Part shown: positions 37,605 through 42,677 of the stretch, in pieces
Layout: each line of letters opens with the position of its first letter
How positions within the stretch are numbered: the stretch's first letter is position 1
DNA from: Arthrobacter sp. ISL-95
Lineage (GTDB): Bacteria; Actinomycetota; Actinomycetes; Actinomycetales; Micrococcaceae
Assembly (NCBI RefSeq): GCF_018613695.1
Contig: NZ_JAGGPR010000007.1
Coordinates: 62,001 to 126,000, forward strand
Direction: 5' to 3'
Length of the DNA stretch: 64,000 nt
Notes under the pieces: model-generated
Told to the model about the DNA's origin: nothing
The model's database searches: none
Seen by the model: only the letters and a program-made list of their open reading frames with translations
Program-made: the position numbers and the translations under genes

Positions 37605-37762
37605 GGTTACAGGACAGTTGAATTGGCAGCGAACTGACCCGCCCGCGGAGGATCAGTTAAAGGCCGGAGTCCTGAAAGGGTCGGAGAACAGCCCCGCGAC
37701 CTCGCAACGACGCGGTTTGCTCATTTCAGGGATATCCCCGAAAAATCGCGGCTGCCGACGGG

Positions 37763-37985
37763 CTAATAGGAGTCCCGCTGCCCGGCTTCGGGTTCTGCCC
37801 ATTCGAGCGCGGCAACGAGGTGCCCCTCGTTGGGAGGGGCCTGTTGCTCTGCGGCCGGAAGCTTGTCGTAGGTGTAGGCGGCAATGGCCATGGGCGAGGT
37901 CGAGCGGCCGAGGCTGTACCTGACGCTGCGGTCGTTCTTGGTGCCGCAGATCAGGATGCCGAGGGGTAGCGCTCGGGAGTCCGGG
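37763..37985 (-). pseudogene. DUF1016/PDDEXK nuclease C-terminal fragment
   Basis: LPLGILICGTKNDRSVRYSL, then GRSTSPMAIAAYTYDKLPAA matches the C-terminal end of YhcG/DUF1016 PDDEXK nucleases (PTVGILLC..KD, ..PLAVAxY..LP). The gene is cut at about 37985. These nucleases are linked to restriction or defence loci. It ends in a TAG at 37763-37765. Confidence 0.6.
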
Positions 37986-38061: not shown

Positions 38062-38475
38062 TCAGAGGGGCGTGGGGGGACGGGCCGTTGCGGCGGTGGG
38101 CGGGTGCTCTATAGCGAGGACCGAGATGTCGATGCGCCCGGGAGTGAGCCCGGTGTGGCTGACGGTCCGGGTGATCTGCTCCCGCACGGCCTGGGCGACG
38201 TTCAGGGCTGCGAACGCGATATCGGTGGCGATGTCGAGCTGGACGTCGGCGATGCCGTGGTGGACGGTCACGAAGACGCCGTCGTGCCGGGCGGGAGTCG
38301 TGCGGGTCTCTGCCCTGCGGAGATTTTGGAGTGTTCCTTTTCCCAAGTGGATGAGAAGGTTTTTCAGGGTCGGTTCGAGCCGGAGGACACCTGGTGTATC
38401 GAGGGCGGTGCGGGCAGCAAGGTCGGCGATAAGATCGCTGCTGATCAGTCGGGCTTCGAGGGGATGCTCAGACAT
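38062..38475 (-). CDS. Asp23/Gls24 family protein (sigma-operon member)
   Basis: This 137-residue protein has the Asp23 pattern: IADLAARTALDTPGVLRLEP, DGVFVTVHHGIADVQLDIAT and a C-terminal GRIDISVLAIE strand. Asp23-type proteins associate with the membrane through AmaP/DUF2273 partners and respond to envelope stress. It overlaps the gene above it by 8 bases and closes a three-gene operon led by an ECF sigma factor. The start MSEHPLEARL is fixed by that overlap. Confidence 0.75.
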   Translation of the reverse strand: MSEHPLEARLISSDLIADLAARTALDTPGVLRLEPTLKNLLIHLGKGTLQNLRRAETRTTPARHDGVFVTVHHGIADVQLDIATDIAFAALNVAQAVREQITRTVSHTGLTPGRIDISVLAIEHPPTAATARPPTPL

Positions 38476-39052
38476 CGTAGAAATCCTCCACGGTGATGTT
38501 GACGGTCCCGGCGTTGAGTCCGACGTGTCCTGTGATCATGGTGATGATCCGCTGACGCAGCAGCTCGGCGGTTCCGGGGATGTCGGTGTCGGAGGCCACG
38601 GCGATTCGAAGGTCCACCGAGATGCCGGCGGTTCCGGCCGGGCGGAGGGCGTCCGCGGTAGCCGGGTCAGCGTGGACGCGGCAGCGGCGGCCGCGTACTC
38701 CCGGAAGGGCATCGGTGCCGAACCAGATGACTGAAGTGATGGCTTGTTCGCTGATCGTGATGCCCCCCTGGCCAGACTGGAAGACGGGGAGCCGGTTGCC
38801 CCTGCGGACTTCGGCGCGGGCCAGGTTCATGATGGCGTCCTTGACGGCGTGATGGGGCTGCAGGGAGGGGTCTTCTGCATCGTTGTCCCGAAGCGTGCGG
38901 GCGGCCTCCGCGAGCTTTGCCAGGCTGCCCCGTGCCGTCCGGCACGGGGCGCAGCCGTTTTCATGGGCGGTGGGGGGCTGGTTGATGGTTGCCCAGACCT
39001 CGTCGATGCTCCGGCCACAGCCCAGGCGGGGATTGGTTTCGTCTATTGCCAT
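38468..39052 (-). CDS. Asp23-like protein with N-terminal zinc anti-sigma motif
   Basis: This 194-residue protein has two parts. The N-terminus contains His30-x3-Cys34-x2-Cys37 (AHENGCAPCRTA), the HxxxCxxC signature of zinc-containing anti-sigma factors, followed by a helix. The C-terminal part (about 70-190) is Asp23-like: HHAVKDAIMNLARAEVRRGN, then SVDLRIAVASDTDIPGTAEL and GTVNITVEDFYDV. It overlaps the ECF sigma gene by 10 bases, the usual place of an anti-sigma gene. I infer that it is the anti-sigma factor, with an Asp23 domain as the envelope-stress sensor. This joining is unusual. Confidence 0.65.
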   Translation of the reverse strand: MAIDETNPRLGCGRSIDEVWATINQPPTAHENGCAPCRTARGSLAKLAEAARTLRDNDAEDPSLQPHHAVKDAIMNLARAEVRRGNRLPVFQSGQGGITISEQAITSVIWFGTDALPGVRGRRCRVHADPATADALRPAGTAGISVDLRIAVASDTDIPGTAELLRQRIITMITGHVGLNAGTVNITVEDFYDV

Positions 39053-39651
39053 TGACTCATCCTTTCCGCGAGTTGTGCGCGTGCTCTGGCGAGGCGGCCT
39101 CTGACCGTCGGTTCACTGATCTCCAACGTTGCGGCTATTTCAGCGTAGCTGCGTTCGTGGATTTCCCGCAGGAGCCAGCAGGCGCGCTGCCCGGGCGGGA
39201 GGGTCAACAGCGCTGTGGTCAGGCCGTCGATCTCGCAGGAGATTTCCGCTTCGCGGGCGGGATCGCCTCCGGCTCCCGGTTCGGTGAAGGAACCCGGAAT
39301 TGATTGCAAAGTTACCGGTTCCTGGACGACCTCCGCCTGCCTGGATCGCCGGCGCAGACTGTCCAGGCAGCGGTTGGTGGCCATCTGGTAAAGCCATCCG
39401 CTGAAAGCCTGCACGTTTATTAGCAGCGGCAACTGTCTCCAGCAGGCCACCAGGGTCTCCTGCACGACGTCTTCGGCTTCGCCCCGGTCGTGGAGCATCC
39501 GGAAAGCGAGACGGAAAAGTCTGCCCTGATACGCCTCGACGAGGTATTCGAAGGCGTCCAGGTTGCCGTCCTGGGCCCGGGCGACGACGGTCGCCTCGTC
39601 CAGATCCTCGGGCCGGGTCAGGGCAACGGGTTCATGTTCATCCATCGTCAC
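39043..39651 (-). CDS. ECF sigma factor
   Basis: This is a 202-residue sigma-70 family extracytoplasmic-function factor. Region 2 is DAFEYLVEAYQGRLFRLAFR with GEAEDVVQETLVACWRQL; region 4 is LPPGQRACWLLREIHERSYA with ISEPTVRGRLARARAQL. It directs RNA polymerase to a small stress regulon. It sits divergent from a five-gene Asp23 operon (39854-42240), which is the obvious target. The next gene in its own operon carries an anti-sigma-like zinc motif. It starts at an ATG at 39651 (MTMDEHEP) or 39645. Confidence 0.9.
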   Translation of the reverse strand: MTMDEHEPVALTRPEDLDEATVVARAQDGNLDAFEYLVEAYQGRLFRLAFRMLHDRGEAEDVVQETLVACWRQLPLLINVQAFSGWLYQMATNRCLDSLRRRSRQAEVVQEPVTLQSIPGSFTEPGAGGDPAREAEISCEIDGLTTALLTLPPGQRACWLLREIHERSYAEIAATLEISEPTVRGRLARARAQLAERMSQWQ

Positions 39652-39853
39652 CGCCGTCCCCTGTGCCCCCGAACCGCGCCACCCGGGTTTCGGGGATTAG
39701 GACCAATACTTTCAGACGGGGCCGGTCATGGGAATGCCCGGTGCGAGGGAAGCAGGGAGAAAACAGTTTTGCCTTTCCGCGTGACGTTTGGTGGTGCCGT
39801 GCGTCTTTAACTATGTAAGCAAACATCGCATCGCTTGATTGGAGATGGTTCCC

Positions 39854-40354
39854 GTGACAGAAGCCCCACAGTTCCCGGCACAGTCCGGTGGCATGGTGGC
39901 AACCCAGGAGGGGCAGAAGCGGGACGCCCCCGTTGAGACCCGCCGCAGCACTGACCTGTTGCACACAGACCGGGGAGATACCACCATTGAGGAAACCGTG
40001 GTCCAGAAGCTGGCAGGCATGGCAACGCGTGAGGTTCCCGGCGTGTATGCGATGGGTAGCGCTGTCCGGCGCGCGTTCGGCGCGATGACCGAGCGTATCG
40101 CCGGTTCCCAGACCAATGTCAGCGGCGGGGTGAGCGTGGAAAAGGGTGAACGCCAGACCGCCATCGACTTGAGCATCGTCGTCGAGTACGGAACATCCAT
40201 CGTCGAGGTCAGCCAAGGTATCCGGCGCAATGTCATCCAGTCGGTGGAGCGCGCCACCGGTCTGGAGGTGCTGGAAGTGAACGTCCACGTCACCGATGTT
40301 CATCTGCCCGAGGATGAGCGGCCCGAAGAGGACGCCAAACAGCCTCTGCAGTAA
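39854..40354 (+). CDS. Asp23/Gls24 family envelope stress protein 1
   Basis: This protein of about 166 residues has an acidic N-terminal tail and the complete Asp23 domain (IEETVVQKLAGMATREVPGV, FGAMTERIAG, ERQTAIDLSIVVEYGTSIVE and LEVLEVNVHVTDVHLP). It is the first gene of the rightward operon. I favour the GTG at 39854, with GGAG 9 bases upstream, over the TTG at 39839. It probably forms a membrane-proximal scaffold with the DUF2273 and AmaP-like products downstream. Confidence 0.88.
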   Translation: MTEAPQFPAQSGGMVATQEGQKRDAPVETRRSTDLLHTDRGDTTIEETVVQKLAGMATREVPGVYAMGSAVRRAFGAMTERIAGSQTNVSGGVSVEKGERQTAIDLSIVVEYGTSIVEVSQGIRRNVIQSVERATGLEVLEVNVHVTDVHLPEDERPEEDAKQPLQ

Positions 40355-40411: not shown

Positions 40412-40591
40412 ATGTCCACTACACGATGGTGTCTGGCAGTCGGCTTGGTACTAGGAATTGTTTTGGCCTTCGGAGGCTTTACAGCCCTGGTGATAGCGGT
40501 CCTCTTTGGCCTGATCGGGCTGATAGTGGGCCGTATCGCTGAAGGCAAACTGGATCTGCAGGCCCTGTTCGGCAAAGCATCCAGCCGATGA
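40412..40591 (+). CDS. DUF2273 small membrane protein
   Basis: A 59-residue protein with two hydrophobic helices: LAVGLVLGIVLAFGGFTALV and IAVLFGLIGLIVGRIAEGKL, the DUF2273 layout found beside Asp23 genes. AAGGAG lies 7 bases upstream of the ATG. The stop overlaps the next start (ATGA), so translation is coupled. It likely anchors the Asp23 proteins to the membrane. Confidence 0.85.
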   Translation: MSTTRWCLAVGLVLGIVLAFGGFTALVIAVLFGLIGLIVGRIAEGKLDLQALFGKASSR

Positions 40592-40998
40592 ATACCGCCG
40601 CAGCACCTGCCGGCTCCCAGGACTTGGAGTACCGGGACCTGGATTCGCGGGGGCGCACCGTCCTGGACCGGAAGGTGGTGGAGAAGATCGCCGGTCAGGT
40701 CGCCGGCGAGGAGTCCTTTGCCGGTGGGTCTTCAGGAGGGTTTCTGGGCATCGGAGCACATTCTGACTTTTCCGTCCGGCCCAAAGTCACGGTGGAACTG
40801 GCAGGCAATATGGCCGTGCTCAGCGTGGAAATAGGGCTGCTCTACCCGGTGCCGCTGCGCCAGGCAACCGAACAGTTGCGCCGCCGGATCAGCGAACGCG
40901 TCACCGCCTTGACCGGGGTGGAGGTTCGGCAGGTCGACATCACAGTGTCCTGGCTGAAACCTGCCGATGAAATCACCGGCCGCCGGAGGCTGTTATGA
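40588..40998 (+). CDS. Asp23/Gls24 family envelope stress protein 2
   Basis: A 136-residue Asp23-domain protein: TVLDRKVVEKIAGQVAGEES, VRPKVTVELAGNMAVLSVEI, LRRRISERVTALTGVEVRQV and DITVSWL. A Gly/Ser-rich insert (AGGSSGGFLGIGAHSDF) lies after the first helix. It is coupled by ATGA overlaps to the genes on both sides. It is a second, diverged member of the same complex. Confidence 0.85.
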   Translation: MNTAAAPAGSQDLEYRDLDSRGRTVLDRKVVEKIAGQVAGEESFAGGSSGGFLGIGAHSDFSVRPKVTVELAGNMAVLSVEIGLLYPVPLRQATEQLRRRISERVTALTGVEVRQVDITVSWLKPADEITGRRRLL

Positions 40999-41576
40999 GC
41001 AGGCACGATGGGAAAGTCACCCCCCTGCGGCACCGTCCCAGCCGGGCTATTCCTGCCCTGATCCTGGGAACACTGCTTCTGGCCGCCGGCGTGGCACTGG
41101 TATGGGCGGCAGTGGCCCGGCTGGTCACGGGTTCGTGGCCGGTGTATCTGGCCGGGCCCCGGGACTGGCTGACCGGTGTGACCTGGAACGATCCGGGAGT
41201 CTGGGCTGCCGGGGCCGCGGCGACGGTCCTGGGATTCGTCCTGCTCGCGGCAGCACTGGTTCCGGGCCGCTTCAACGCCGTACAACTGCAGGCACCCGCG
41301 GACGGGGGCCATGCCCCGGCGGCGGGCGCGCAGGAGATTGTCATGACAAGGCGGGCCATTGCGCGGTATGCGGCGGCCCACTGTGAACACGTCGACGGCG
41401 TCAGGTCAGCCACGGCCACGGCTTCGGCACGCGCAGTCCACCTGAACGTGACCACGGCCCTGCACGAAACAGGGGAGCTGCGCGCGCGAGTGATTGCCGT
41501 GGTCACCGAACGCCTGACCGGTACCGGGCTCAACCCGGTCCCGAAGGCCGCCGCCTCCGTCCGGTCCAGGGAATAA
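40995..41576 (+). CDS. DUF6286-like Asp23-associated membrane protein
   Basis: A 193-residue protein with two membrane helices (ALILGTLLLAAGVALVWAAV and AAGAAATVLGFVLLAAALVP) and a C-terminal soluble domain of Asp23-like alpha/beta pattern (AIARYAAAHCEHVDGVRSAT, ASARAVHLNVTTALHETGEL). This is the DUF6286 organisation known from actinobacterial Asp23 loci. The start overlaps the upstream stop (ATGA). It probably tethers the complex. Confidence 0.8.
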   Translation: MSRHDGKVTPLRHRPSRAIPALILGTLLLAAGVALVWAAVARLVTGSWPVYLAGPRDWLTGVTWNDPGVWAAGAAATVLGFVLLAAALVPGRFNAVQLQAPADGGHAPAAGAQEIVMTRRAIARYAAAHCEHVDGVRSATATASARAVHLNVTTALHETGELRARVIAVVTERLTGTGLNPVPKAAASVRSRE

Positions 41577-41619: not shown

Positions 41620-42240
41620 ATGCGACAACACGCCGGAGTATTGAACCGCACCTGGCTCCTCATCCTCGGCATTCTCGCCCTCGCCGGCGGCGTCCTGACA
41701 CTGCTGGCCGCCAACGGAACGCTGCACGCCATGAGCCCTGCAATGCCCGCCGCGGAAAGTCCCGTCGTGACAGGTGACCTGCACACGGTCTTCGAACCTG
41801 CCTATGTTACGGCCATTGTCCTGGTGGCCGGGGTTCTCATCGGCGCCCTGGGATTGTCATGGATCCTGGCACAGATTCCCCGAAGGAATCCCGCCGACAC
41901 GTACCGGTTGCATCAGGATCCCGCCTCCGGAACCACGCTATGCGATGCTGCGGCGCTGGCCTCCGCCGTGGAAAACCAAATCAATACCCTGCCCGGAGTC
42001 GTGGGTTCCTCGGCGCTGCTGCGAGGCACCGCCATGGAACCGGATCTCACCATGAAGATCACGGTTAACAATCGCGCCGACATCCAGGACGTCCTCCACA
42101 GGATCAACACCACCGTCATTCCGGACCTTTCCACGGCCTTGGAGACACCGCTGCGGCGGACAGGAATCCAGATTGAGATCAGCGGCCGCAACGCTCTTGC
42201 CGGCACCACCGTCGCGACCACCGGCACCGTGATCTACTAG
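41620..42240 (+). CDS. AmaP-like alkaline shock membrane anchor protein
   Basis: A 206-residue protein with two N-terminal membrane segments (WLLILGILALAGGVLTLLAA and VTAIVLVAGVLIGALGLSWI) and a C-terminal Asp23-like domain (ALASAVENQINTLPGVVGSS, LTMKITVNNRADIQDVLHRI, GIQIEISGRNAL). It follows the DUF6286 gene by 43 bases and has a GAAAGAAGG ribosome-binding site. It is the last gene of the operon. The AmaP role, holding Asp23 at the membrane, is by family analogy. Confidence 0.78.
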   Translation: MRQHAGVLNRTWLLILGILALAGGVLTLLAANGTLHAMSPAMPAAESPVVTGDLHTVFEPAYVTAIVLVAGVLIGALGLSWILAQIPRRNPADTYRLHQDPASGTTLCDAAALASAVENQINTLPGVVGSSALLRGTAMEPDLTMKITVNNRADIQDVLHRINTTVIPDLSTALETPLRRTGIQIEISGRNALAGTTVATTGTVIY

Positions 42241-42244
42241 GCCC

Positions 42245-42677
42245 GTCACGAGCAATGGATCAGGTTCCGGATGATCTACAGTCGCATCTCAGACCCGGAG
42301 GTCGGCGGGAATACGAAGCTGCCCTTACTGCCTGGCAACCGCATGGCAGGTCCTGCGATCGAGGCACTGATGAACGGCAAACTCGGTAACCAGGCCCTTC
42401 ATTAGCTGCATACTAACTTCCTCAAAACCGAACTGGAGCTGGGCCACTGCCCCCGATTGCCCGCTGAAGGTCCAGACGTTCCTGCCTAGAGTTCCTTACC
42501 ACCAGCGAATACGTTCCCAGGCTCCGGGCACGACTGGACCGAGAGGAAGACCTCATCGCCGATGCCCAGGTCCGGGGATGGCCCCCTGAAGTCGAACGTC
42601 ACCACGCTACTCAACGGCGCATCAACGAGCTTCTCGAGGAGCATCAGGTTTCCACAAGAGACTATGCAATGTCCTGA
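42245..42677 (+). mobile_element. Tyrosine integrase C-terminal remnant
   Basis: In one frame: IYSRISDPEVGGNTKLPLLP, AGPAIEALMNGKLGNQALH, an in-frame TAG, then NFLKTELELGHCPRLPAEG. After a shift: CLEFLTTSEYVPRLRARLDR, EEDLIADAQVRGWPPEVERH. This order matches the tail of large site-specific integrases carried by actinobacterial elements. The catalytic domain is gone and the Cys-rich motif between the two pieces is deleted. Confidence 0.6.

Follow-up and report, generated by a model that had tools for sequence, protein, structure and literature searches.

A putative zinc-type anti-sigma domain fused to an Asp23-like domain, encoded beside an ECF sigma factor gene and a divergent Asp23 operon in Arthrobacter

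The asp23 operon of Staphylococcus aureus is under the control of SigB. In this organism Asp23 forms filaments and AmaP holds Asp23 at the membrane, and deletion of the asp23 or the amaP gene induces a cell wall stress response, according to the sections consulted of PMC6954212. Asp23-family proteins have also been associated with ECF sigma factors. In the portion used of a 2022 review (PMC8999054), which follows Casas-Pastor et al. 2021, the groups ECF286 (type from Streptomyces rimosus, WP_003983642.1) and ECF292 (type from Mycolicibacterium cosmeticum, WP_036395736.1) adjoin soluble Asp23-family proteins that are predicted anti-sigma factors of unknown mechanism, and the ZAS-regulated groups ECF270/271 are listed separately from these. 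Class I anti-sigma domains with and without zinc occur mixed within groups, and a structural role has been suggested for the zinc of those domains (PMC7406223, in the part consulted). Bacillus subtilis RsiW binds zinc via C3, H30, C34 and C37, and its grip on SigW is independent of zinc in the excerpted account of PMC5358783.

The idea of an Asp23-family anti-sigma factor is already in print in the portion used of PMC8999054; the parts and the wiring reported here are more complete. Our literature search found no paper joining Asp23, zinc binding and anti-sigma function, and the zinc-domain fusion, third gene, promoter and ligand-loss series described below were not met in the literature searched; Casas-Pastor et al. 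2021, supplement included, may already contain the fusion.

Gene layout and the promoter of the Asp23 operon

We analyzed a stretch of 64,000 nucleotides from Arthrobacter sp. ISL-95 (the window). Positions 38062-39651 hold three minus-strand genes with overlapping ends, followed on the other strand by a group of Asp23-related genes:

39043..39651, minus strand: ECF sigma factor gene P0002 (Pfam Sigma70_r2 66.9 bits and Sigma70_r4_2 54.4 bits; TIGR02937 100.7 bits)
38468..39052, minus strand: P0001, predicted anti-sigma gene (194 aa) with a 10-nt overlap with the sigma gene
38062..38475, minus strand: third gene P0003, small Asp23-like protein of 137 aa, overlapping the P0001 gene by 8 nt (Pfam Asp23 20.5 bits, sub-threshold)
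39781..39805, plus strand: predicted ECF-type promoter GTGACG-N15-CGTC before the Asp23 operon, a conserved motif
39854..40354, plus strand: Asp23/Gls24 protein P0004, first gene of the operon (Pfam Asp23 103.1 bits)
40412..40591, plus strand: small membrane protein P0005 (hydrophobicity peak 2.64; weak Pfam matches to DUF2232 and DUF2273 only)
40588..40998, plus strand: second Asp23 protein P0006 (Pfam Asp23 34.1 bits)
40995..41576, plus strand: DUF6286 membrane protein P0007 (85.1 bits; hydrophobicity peak 2.45)
41620..42240, plus strand: AmaP-like membrane anchor P0008 (NF033218 anchor_AmaP 46.9 bits, under the cut-off of 55; hydrophobicity peak 2.57)

An earlier note on this DNA had described the overlap of the P0001 gene with the sigma gene and a divergent Asp23 operon, and both were found: the sigma ORF, 39043-39651 on the minus strand, shares 10 nt with P0001, and the operon adjoins the three genes with a conserved ECF-type promoter in front. 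The span taken by that note also covers the third gene, 38062-38475, which was not discussed there. P0002 starts with GTG, an ATG two codons further on being also possible, and the GTG start of P0004 aligns with the ATG of its relatives. P0001 has no membrane helix (top 19-residue Kyte-Doolittle mean 1.04), and in P0001, P0003 and both Asp23 proteins of the operon the hydrophobicity peaks lie between 1.04 and 1.54, none of them strong.

The sigma gene was directly upstream of the anti-sigma gene in 109 of the 109 fetched loci where that side was visible, a count that, like the others given here, holds for loci chosen as best matches to the anti-sigma protein itself. Sigma was scored as paired upstream in 107 of the 110 loci L005-L114, which include genomes fetched twice (e.g. 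L020 = L065) and the window itself twice, as L005 and L036. The three unpaired loci were L006, which is cut by a contig end, L090, where sigma and anti-sigma form one ORF, and L057, where a long N-terminal extension moves the domain past the distance limit used for sigma pairing. In all 29 loci of L005-L034 with sigma visible, window included, the P0001 frame has a start codon either 10 or 4 nt upstream of where the sigma gene ends. Of the 103 loci that contain the end of the anti-sigma gene, 97 have a third small gene overlapping this end, with a start 1-11 nt before the end of the anti-sigma stop codon; it was not found in L034, L061-L064 and L082. L042 (read in the wrong frame) and L060 (doubtful) are counted within the 97, and both were left out of the third-protein profiles. 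By this gene order, the sigma factor, the predicted anti-sigma factor and the third gene are a coupled triad.

Seven plasmids from Streptomyces, Microbacterium and Arthrobacter also encode relatives of the anti-sigma protein (NZ_CP109366.1, NZ_CP085174.1, NZ_CP109253.1, NZ_CP108443.1, NZ_CP139046.1, NZ_CP121273.1 and NZ_CP012477.1), and the public annotation was Asp23/Gls24 family protein only in six of these seven records. A Streptomyces plasmid carries all three genes in the divergent layout of the window, and an Arthrobacter plasmid carries them downstream of an Asp23 gene. On the plasmid of Streptomyces sp. NBC_01558 the triad has neighbours with the annotations ATP-binding protein, STAS proteins and PP2C phosphatase (L160:7169-10558), which are the makings of a partner-switch system. 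Two loci deviate from the usual gene structure. In Microbacterium lacus SDZm4 (L090:4428-5546) the frame continues beyond the usual sigma stop, so that sigma and anti-sigma are read as one ORF, either a natural fusion or a sequencing slip. In Arthrobacter sp. OVS8 (L082:5001-5294) the anti-sigma ORF ends after its N-terminal half and Asp23 is in two pieces; these breaks are possibly sequencing errors in the assembly.

The Asp23/sigma cluster of the window is flanked by 37761-37965 and 42271-42600, stretches that resemble a PDDEXK (YhcG-like) nuclease gene and a tyrosine recombinase gene of Arthrobacter and Rhodococcus plasmids. These similarities hint that the cluster was brought by a mobile element. 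No relative was found in the viral_contigs scan, and Rfam gave no match within the window at gathering scores.

The intergenic regions of nine window-like loci, window included, were aligned, and all nine had GTGACG(A/T)TT, 12 bases and CGTC(T/C)TTA before the Asp23 gene. A GTGACG...CGTC layout has the general shape of ECF promoters. The same form was present at Asp23 genes of Paenarthrobacter-type loci (GTGAGG...CGTC) and of Microbacterium loci (GTGACGTTT...CGTC), and also where the Asp23 operon and the sigma gene point the same way. The pattern GT[G/C]A[C/G]G-N13-16-CGTC, drawn up after the alignments of three groups, occurred before Asp23 in 45 of 67 loci, with 1.1 expected from shuffles over the 69 loci first scored, and on the reverse strand once in those 69. 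Two loci, L015 and L042, were removed from the 69 because the anti-sigma gene itself had been scored there. The exact pattern was not found in 22 of the 67. Outside the three groups that defined it, 5 of 24 loci carried the pattern against about 0.4 expected, one of the five copying a stretch already used. In a probable streptomycete group GTGACG followed by CGTGTC was seen by eye in three of eight loci (L051, L055 and L056).

In the window's genome the tight pattern occurred once, at the Asp23 operon, and a looser pattern had three sites against one in the reversed control. From these results, transcription of the Asp23 operon by sigma is very probable. The same genome has a second-locus Asp23 gene (L002, G000:C20:425649-425969; 83.5 bits), at which the tight pattern was not found. 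On the NBC_01558 plasmid (L160:4173-4390) GTAACA...CGTGTC was seen by eye before the sigma gene and pointing towards it, so sigma may also serve itself in that locus.

The two halves of P0001

The features of P0001, all on the minus strand, are as follows:

38873..39025, minus strand: residues 10-60, predicted zinc-type anti-sigma domain (CHCC, hhalign, model helices)
39017-39019, minus strand: codon of putative ligand C12
38963-38965, minus strand: codon of putative ligand H30
38951-38953, minus strand: codon of putative ligand C34
38942-38944, minus strand: codon of putative ligand C37
38807..38854, minus strand: residues 67-82, fourth helix, followed by a conserved RxGRxIPL (model, pLDDT about 52-55; conserved columns)
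38477..38794, minus strand: residues 87-192, Asp23-like domain (Pfam, hhalign, strand and helix elements in the model)

The HxxxCxxC motif at His30, Cys34 and Cys37 is as the earlier note gave it, and C12, which it had missed, completes a CHCC set. Shuffling P0001 20000 times gave HxxxCxxC in 29 cases and C-x15-30-HxxxCxxC in 3, and P0001 alone has HxxxCxxC among the 294 window ORFs of 100 codons or more, read from stop to stop; a chance origin was rejected on these counts, and conservation in relatives decides the matter. In alignment A1 (20 members, the window protein being one of them) C12, G13, H30, C34 and C37 are invariant. A match was present in 38 of the 149 genomes searched, the window's own included, some to the Asp23 part only, and 30 loci (L005-L034, L005 being the window) were fetched from these genomes. 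A class-wide search matched 147 of 394 genomes, many over the Asp23 part only, and the best 30 fetched loci were examined. The L005-L034 relatives are 24-89% identical to P0001. The earlier note had held that loss of the ligands in homologues would refute its proposal; all four ligands are kept in 29 of the 30 loci L005-L034, and most or all of them are lost in one clade, described below.

Single-protein searches with P0001 gave no significant anti-sigma match. Among the A1 members zf-HC2 was weakly matched by 5 of 20 (best E 0.16) and the RsrA family by 2 of 20 (best E 0.29). As single-sequence searches of the anti-sigma half were not significant, profile-profile comparison with controls was used. 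The reference set consisted of 34 zf-HC2/RsrA domains taken from related genomes by family models (44 found, 10 identical ones dropped). Residues 1-86 of A1 matched these domains by hhalign at 84.7% (E 6.7e-6), the ligand positions falling opposite each other, both profile sets sharing the motif by selection, as the references were picked for HxxxCxxC. Reversed profiles scored about 5%, none of 30 column-shuffled profiles exceeded 16.9%, and a wider CHCC set raised the match to 94.4%. The N-terminal halves of ligand-less relatives reached 4.7% against the same 34 domains; this figure and the selection of the references for HxxxCxxC indicate that a large part of the profile score comes from the motif.

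When the A1 profile was compared with PDB sequences none was significant: 3hug_B came first (E 0.07), a human zinc-finger protein second and the anti-sigma factor DdvA third (0.21). 3hug_B is listed as a probable conserved membrane protein, which we take to be RslA of Mycobacterium tuberculosis. The AlphaFold model of P0001 (mean pLDDT 79.9, pTM 0.55) has helices at residues 16-21, 29-33, 35-60 and 67-82, the last of low confidence, followed by an Asp23-type half. By analogy with the role of helix 4 in class I anti-sigma domains, as given in the part consulted of PMC7406223, the fourth helix may be the sigma2-binding helix. Structure searches with P0001 gave neither an anti-sigma domain nor a solved Asp23 among the matches listed, the lists being filled by the Asp23 half. 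Residues 100-192 are structurally close to C-terminal domains of CDF-family metal transporters (with MamM: Z 11.3, 77 aligned, 1.8 A); a metal-transporter function was set aside, the likeness being taken as a shared small fold. The model of the L090 single ORF (pTM 0.48) had no readable interface, and its structure searches returned the metal-transporter fold again, besides ECF sigma domains.

P0001 combines three features of class I (ZAS) anti-sigma factors: the C/H-xn-HxxxCxxC ligand set, profile similarity to known anti-sigma domains and a gene beside a cognate ECF sigma factor. The zinc anti-sigma signature claimed by the earlier note is upheld by the CHCC set, the profile match (84.7% and 94.4%) and the coupling to the sigma gene, and the reading of the N-terminal half as a class I (ZAS) domain with putative zinc binding is supported. 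P0001 could instead be one more Asp23 structural protein with no anti-sigma role, its cysteines binding zinc for fold stability. The Asp23/Gls24 annotation of six of the seven plasmid relatives, single-protein searches that give Asp23 only and the dissimilarity of the ligand-less N-terminal halves from known anti-sigma domains speak for such a protein; we regard it as very improbable, given the profile match of the N-terminal half to anti-sigma domains, in which the ligand positions align, and a gene fixed beside sigma with a translational overlap.

An Asp23-like domain after the motif, as the earlier note had it, was likewise found. Pfam Asp23 (PF03780) matched residues 141-190 of P0001 at 25.9 bits, under the gathering score of 28, and the match was obtained in 20 of 20 A1 members at E up to 1 (best 6e-9). 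By hhalign, the P0001-type Asp23 domain matched the Asp23 proteins of neighbouring operons at 96.5%, and in the window-like set the third-protein profile matched the anti-sigma Asp23 domain at 96.6%. Third proteins of four groups (95 proteins) matched each other at 46-99%, the anti-sigma Asp23 domain at 78-97% and full Asp23 proteins at 7 to 97%.

This relatedness, together with the gene overlap in 97 of 103 loci and the self-association of Asp23 in S. aureus (PMC6954212, sections consulted), would also suit a switch within the triad, in which P0001 and P0003 jointly inhibit sigma and release it when their two Asp23 domains part, the large scaffold playing no role. We consider it decidedly unlikely: it would leave the choice of Asp23 genes as target unexplained, and since L034, L061-L064 and L082 show no third gene, the third protein may not always be needed. 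The reading preferred here, that P0001 senses the Asp23 scaffold, is set out below.

Ligand states among relatives and the role of zinc

The four ligand positions were scored in the 107 loci, duplicates included: 66 had CHCC, 25 SANC, 6 DSSC, 4 three cysteines without the histidine, 5 other states and 1 a deletion. A sigma tree of 99 distinct rows (58 with CHCC, 36 lacking the site, 4 lacking His and 1 deletion) was made by a quick method, its root not being inferred. One branch (SH-aLRT 93) separates the 36 site-less rows from the others, a second (96) does the same for the four His-less rows, and both deep branches contain CHCC rows. Among the site-less rows, L045 retains His and Cys at two positions. 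The ligand-loss clade holds all named Microbacterium, Rathayibacter and Curtobacterium loci scored, and CHCC is present also in the Streptomyces and Arthrobacter plasmid copies L160 and L161. The simplest reading of these sequences is that the zinc site is ancestral and was lost once, in the clade that holds the named Microbacterium, Rathayibacter and Curtobacterium loci.

Ligand-less and CHCC proteins matched each other by profile at 99.4% over the N-terminal half and 99.9% over the Asp23 half, and conserved columns of helix 1 and helix 4 are common to both. The clade retains sigma together with the fusion, and most of its loci also have the third gene and the promoter: the third gene is present in all named ligand-loss loci scored with a complete anti-sigma gene, and the promoter pattern in 16 of 17 Microbacterium-type loci scored. 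As a clade without the ligands keeps these parts, zinc would not be a general trigger of release, and a zinc site governing sigma release is not supported as a general rule. The loss argues against zinc as trigger and not against the anti-sigma role. Zinc is probably structural, and sensing is more likely a task of the Asp23 domain. The ligand-loss clade has kept the system after losing the site, which for the window's own clade is suggestive and short of proof.

A sensor of the RsrA kind, in which loss of zinc to oxidants and formation of a disulfide release sigma while the Asp23 domain only positions the protein near the membrane, is unlikely in our judgement. It would fit the invariance of the four ligands, C12 included, in the 20 A1 rows, and soluble zinc anti-sigma factors are often redox sensors (PMC7406223 and PMC8999054, in the parts consulted). 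Redox sensing is kept as a rival only, because of the ligand loss in a clade that retains sigma and the fusion, mostly with third gene and promoter, and because of the narrow promoter set, the tight pattern marking the Asp23 operon only in the window's genome. Moreover, RsiW, with the same ligand set, is no redox sensor according to the excerpted account of PMC5358783. A structural zinc and a sensing Asp23 domain are the reading carried forward.

L007:1477-1956 (G089), which ranks among the two closest relatives, is the one exception in L005-L034, with an in-frame loss of 102 bases between CCTGG repeats. The deletion takes the whole ligand region and leaves sigma, the third gene and the promoter, which makes L007 a natural test strain for the zinc region if the assembly is right.

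Proposed mechanism and comparison with known systems

We propose that P0001 is a soluble anti-sigma factor of the ECF sigma factor encoded just upstream. Its four-helix class I domain, with one zinc at C12/H30/C34/C37, would clamp sigma, and free sigma would transcribe the Asp23-AmaP envelope operon from 39781-39805, as the conservation of the motif suggests. The Asp23 domain of P0001 and P0003 would read the state of the Asp23 membrane scaffold through Asp23 self-association contacts. A shortage of scaffold units, or their displacement under envelope stress, would make P0001 switch partner or conformation; sigma would then be freed and more scaffold made. Zinc would hold the fold of the domain and would not be the main switch, as its loss in one clade suggests. 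We infer that P0001 binds sigma directly and is physically linked to the Asp23 complex. Taken together, an inhibitor that holds sigma, a sigma that transcribes the operon, an Asp23 domain that reads the scaffold with P0003 and a structural zinc make up an account that we favour and consider reasonably likely.

A bolder form, put forward tentatively and held at somewhat less than even confidence, is that the anti-sigma factor monitors what its own regulon makes: P0003 and the anti-sigma Asp23 domain would join the scaffold or be titrated by it, the assembly state would set scaffold transcription, and the zinc domain would be a replaceable structural pin. Sensing of the scaffold is plausible because deletion of Asp23 or AmaP induces the cell wall stress response in S. 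aureus, in the sections consulted of PMC6954212. The cell may in this way sense its own scaffold through an inhibitor carrying a copy of the scaffold protein.

A sigma factor with a predicted Asp23-bearing inhibitor and a conserved promoter facing an Asp23 operon is a direct genetic handle on what Asp23 proteins do and sense. The locus also offers a testable mechanism for ECF groups listed with 'unknown mechanism' in the portion used of the 2022 review (PMC8999054). The natural series from four ligands through three cysteines and few or none to a deletion of the whole region could be used to probe the role of zinc in anti-sigma factors.

The triad resembles ECF286 and ECF292 in that the sigma gene lies beside one for a soluble Asp23-family protein and that Streptomyces is among the hosts; it differs from these groups, as described in the portion used of PMC8999054, by the zinc domain before Asp23, the third gene and the promoter. 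P0001 shares the C/H...HxxxCxxC pattern and, as far as the model with its low-confidence fourth helix shows, the helical layout with the ZAS factors RsiW, RsrA, ChrR and RslA, whereas its effector half is an Asp23 domain where these have a transmembrane or cupin part, and, unlike ZAS factors, some of its relatives are without the ligands. Like the S. aureus Asp23-AmaP scaffold, the operon of the window combines Asp23 proteins with an AmaP-like anchor; in contrast to that scaffold, as described in the sections consulted of PMC6954212, it is accompanied here by a sigma factor and a predicted anti-sigma factor with an Asp23 domain of its own.
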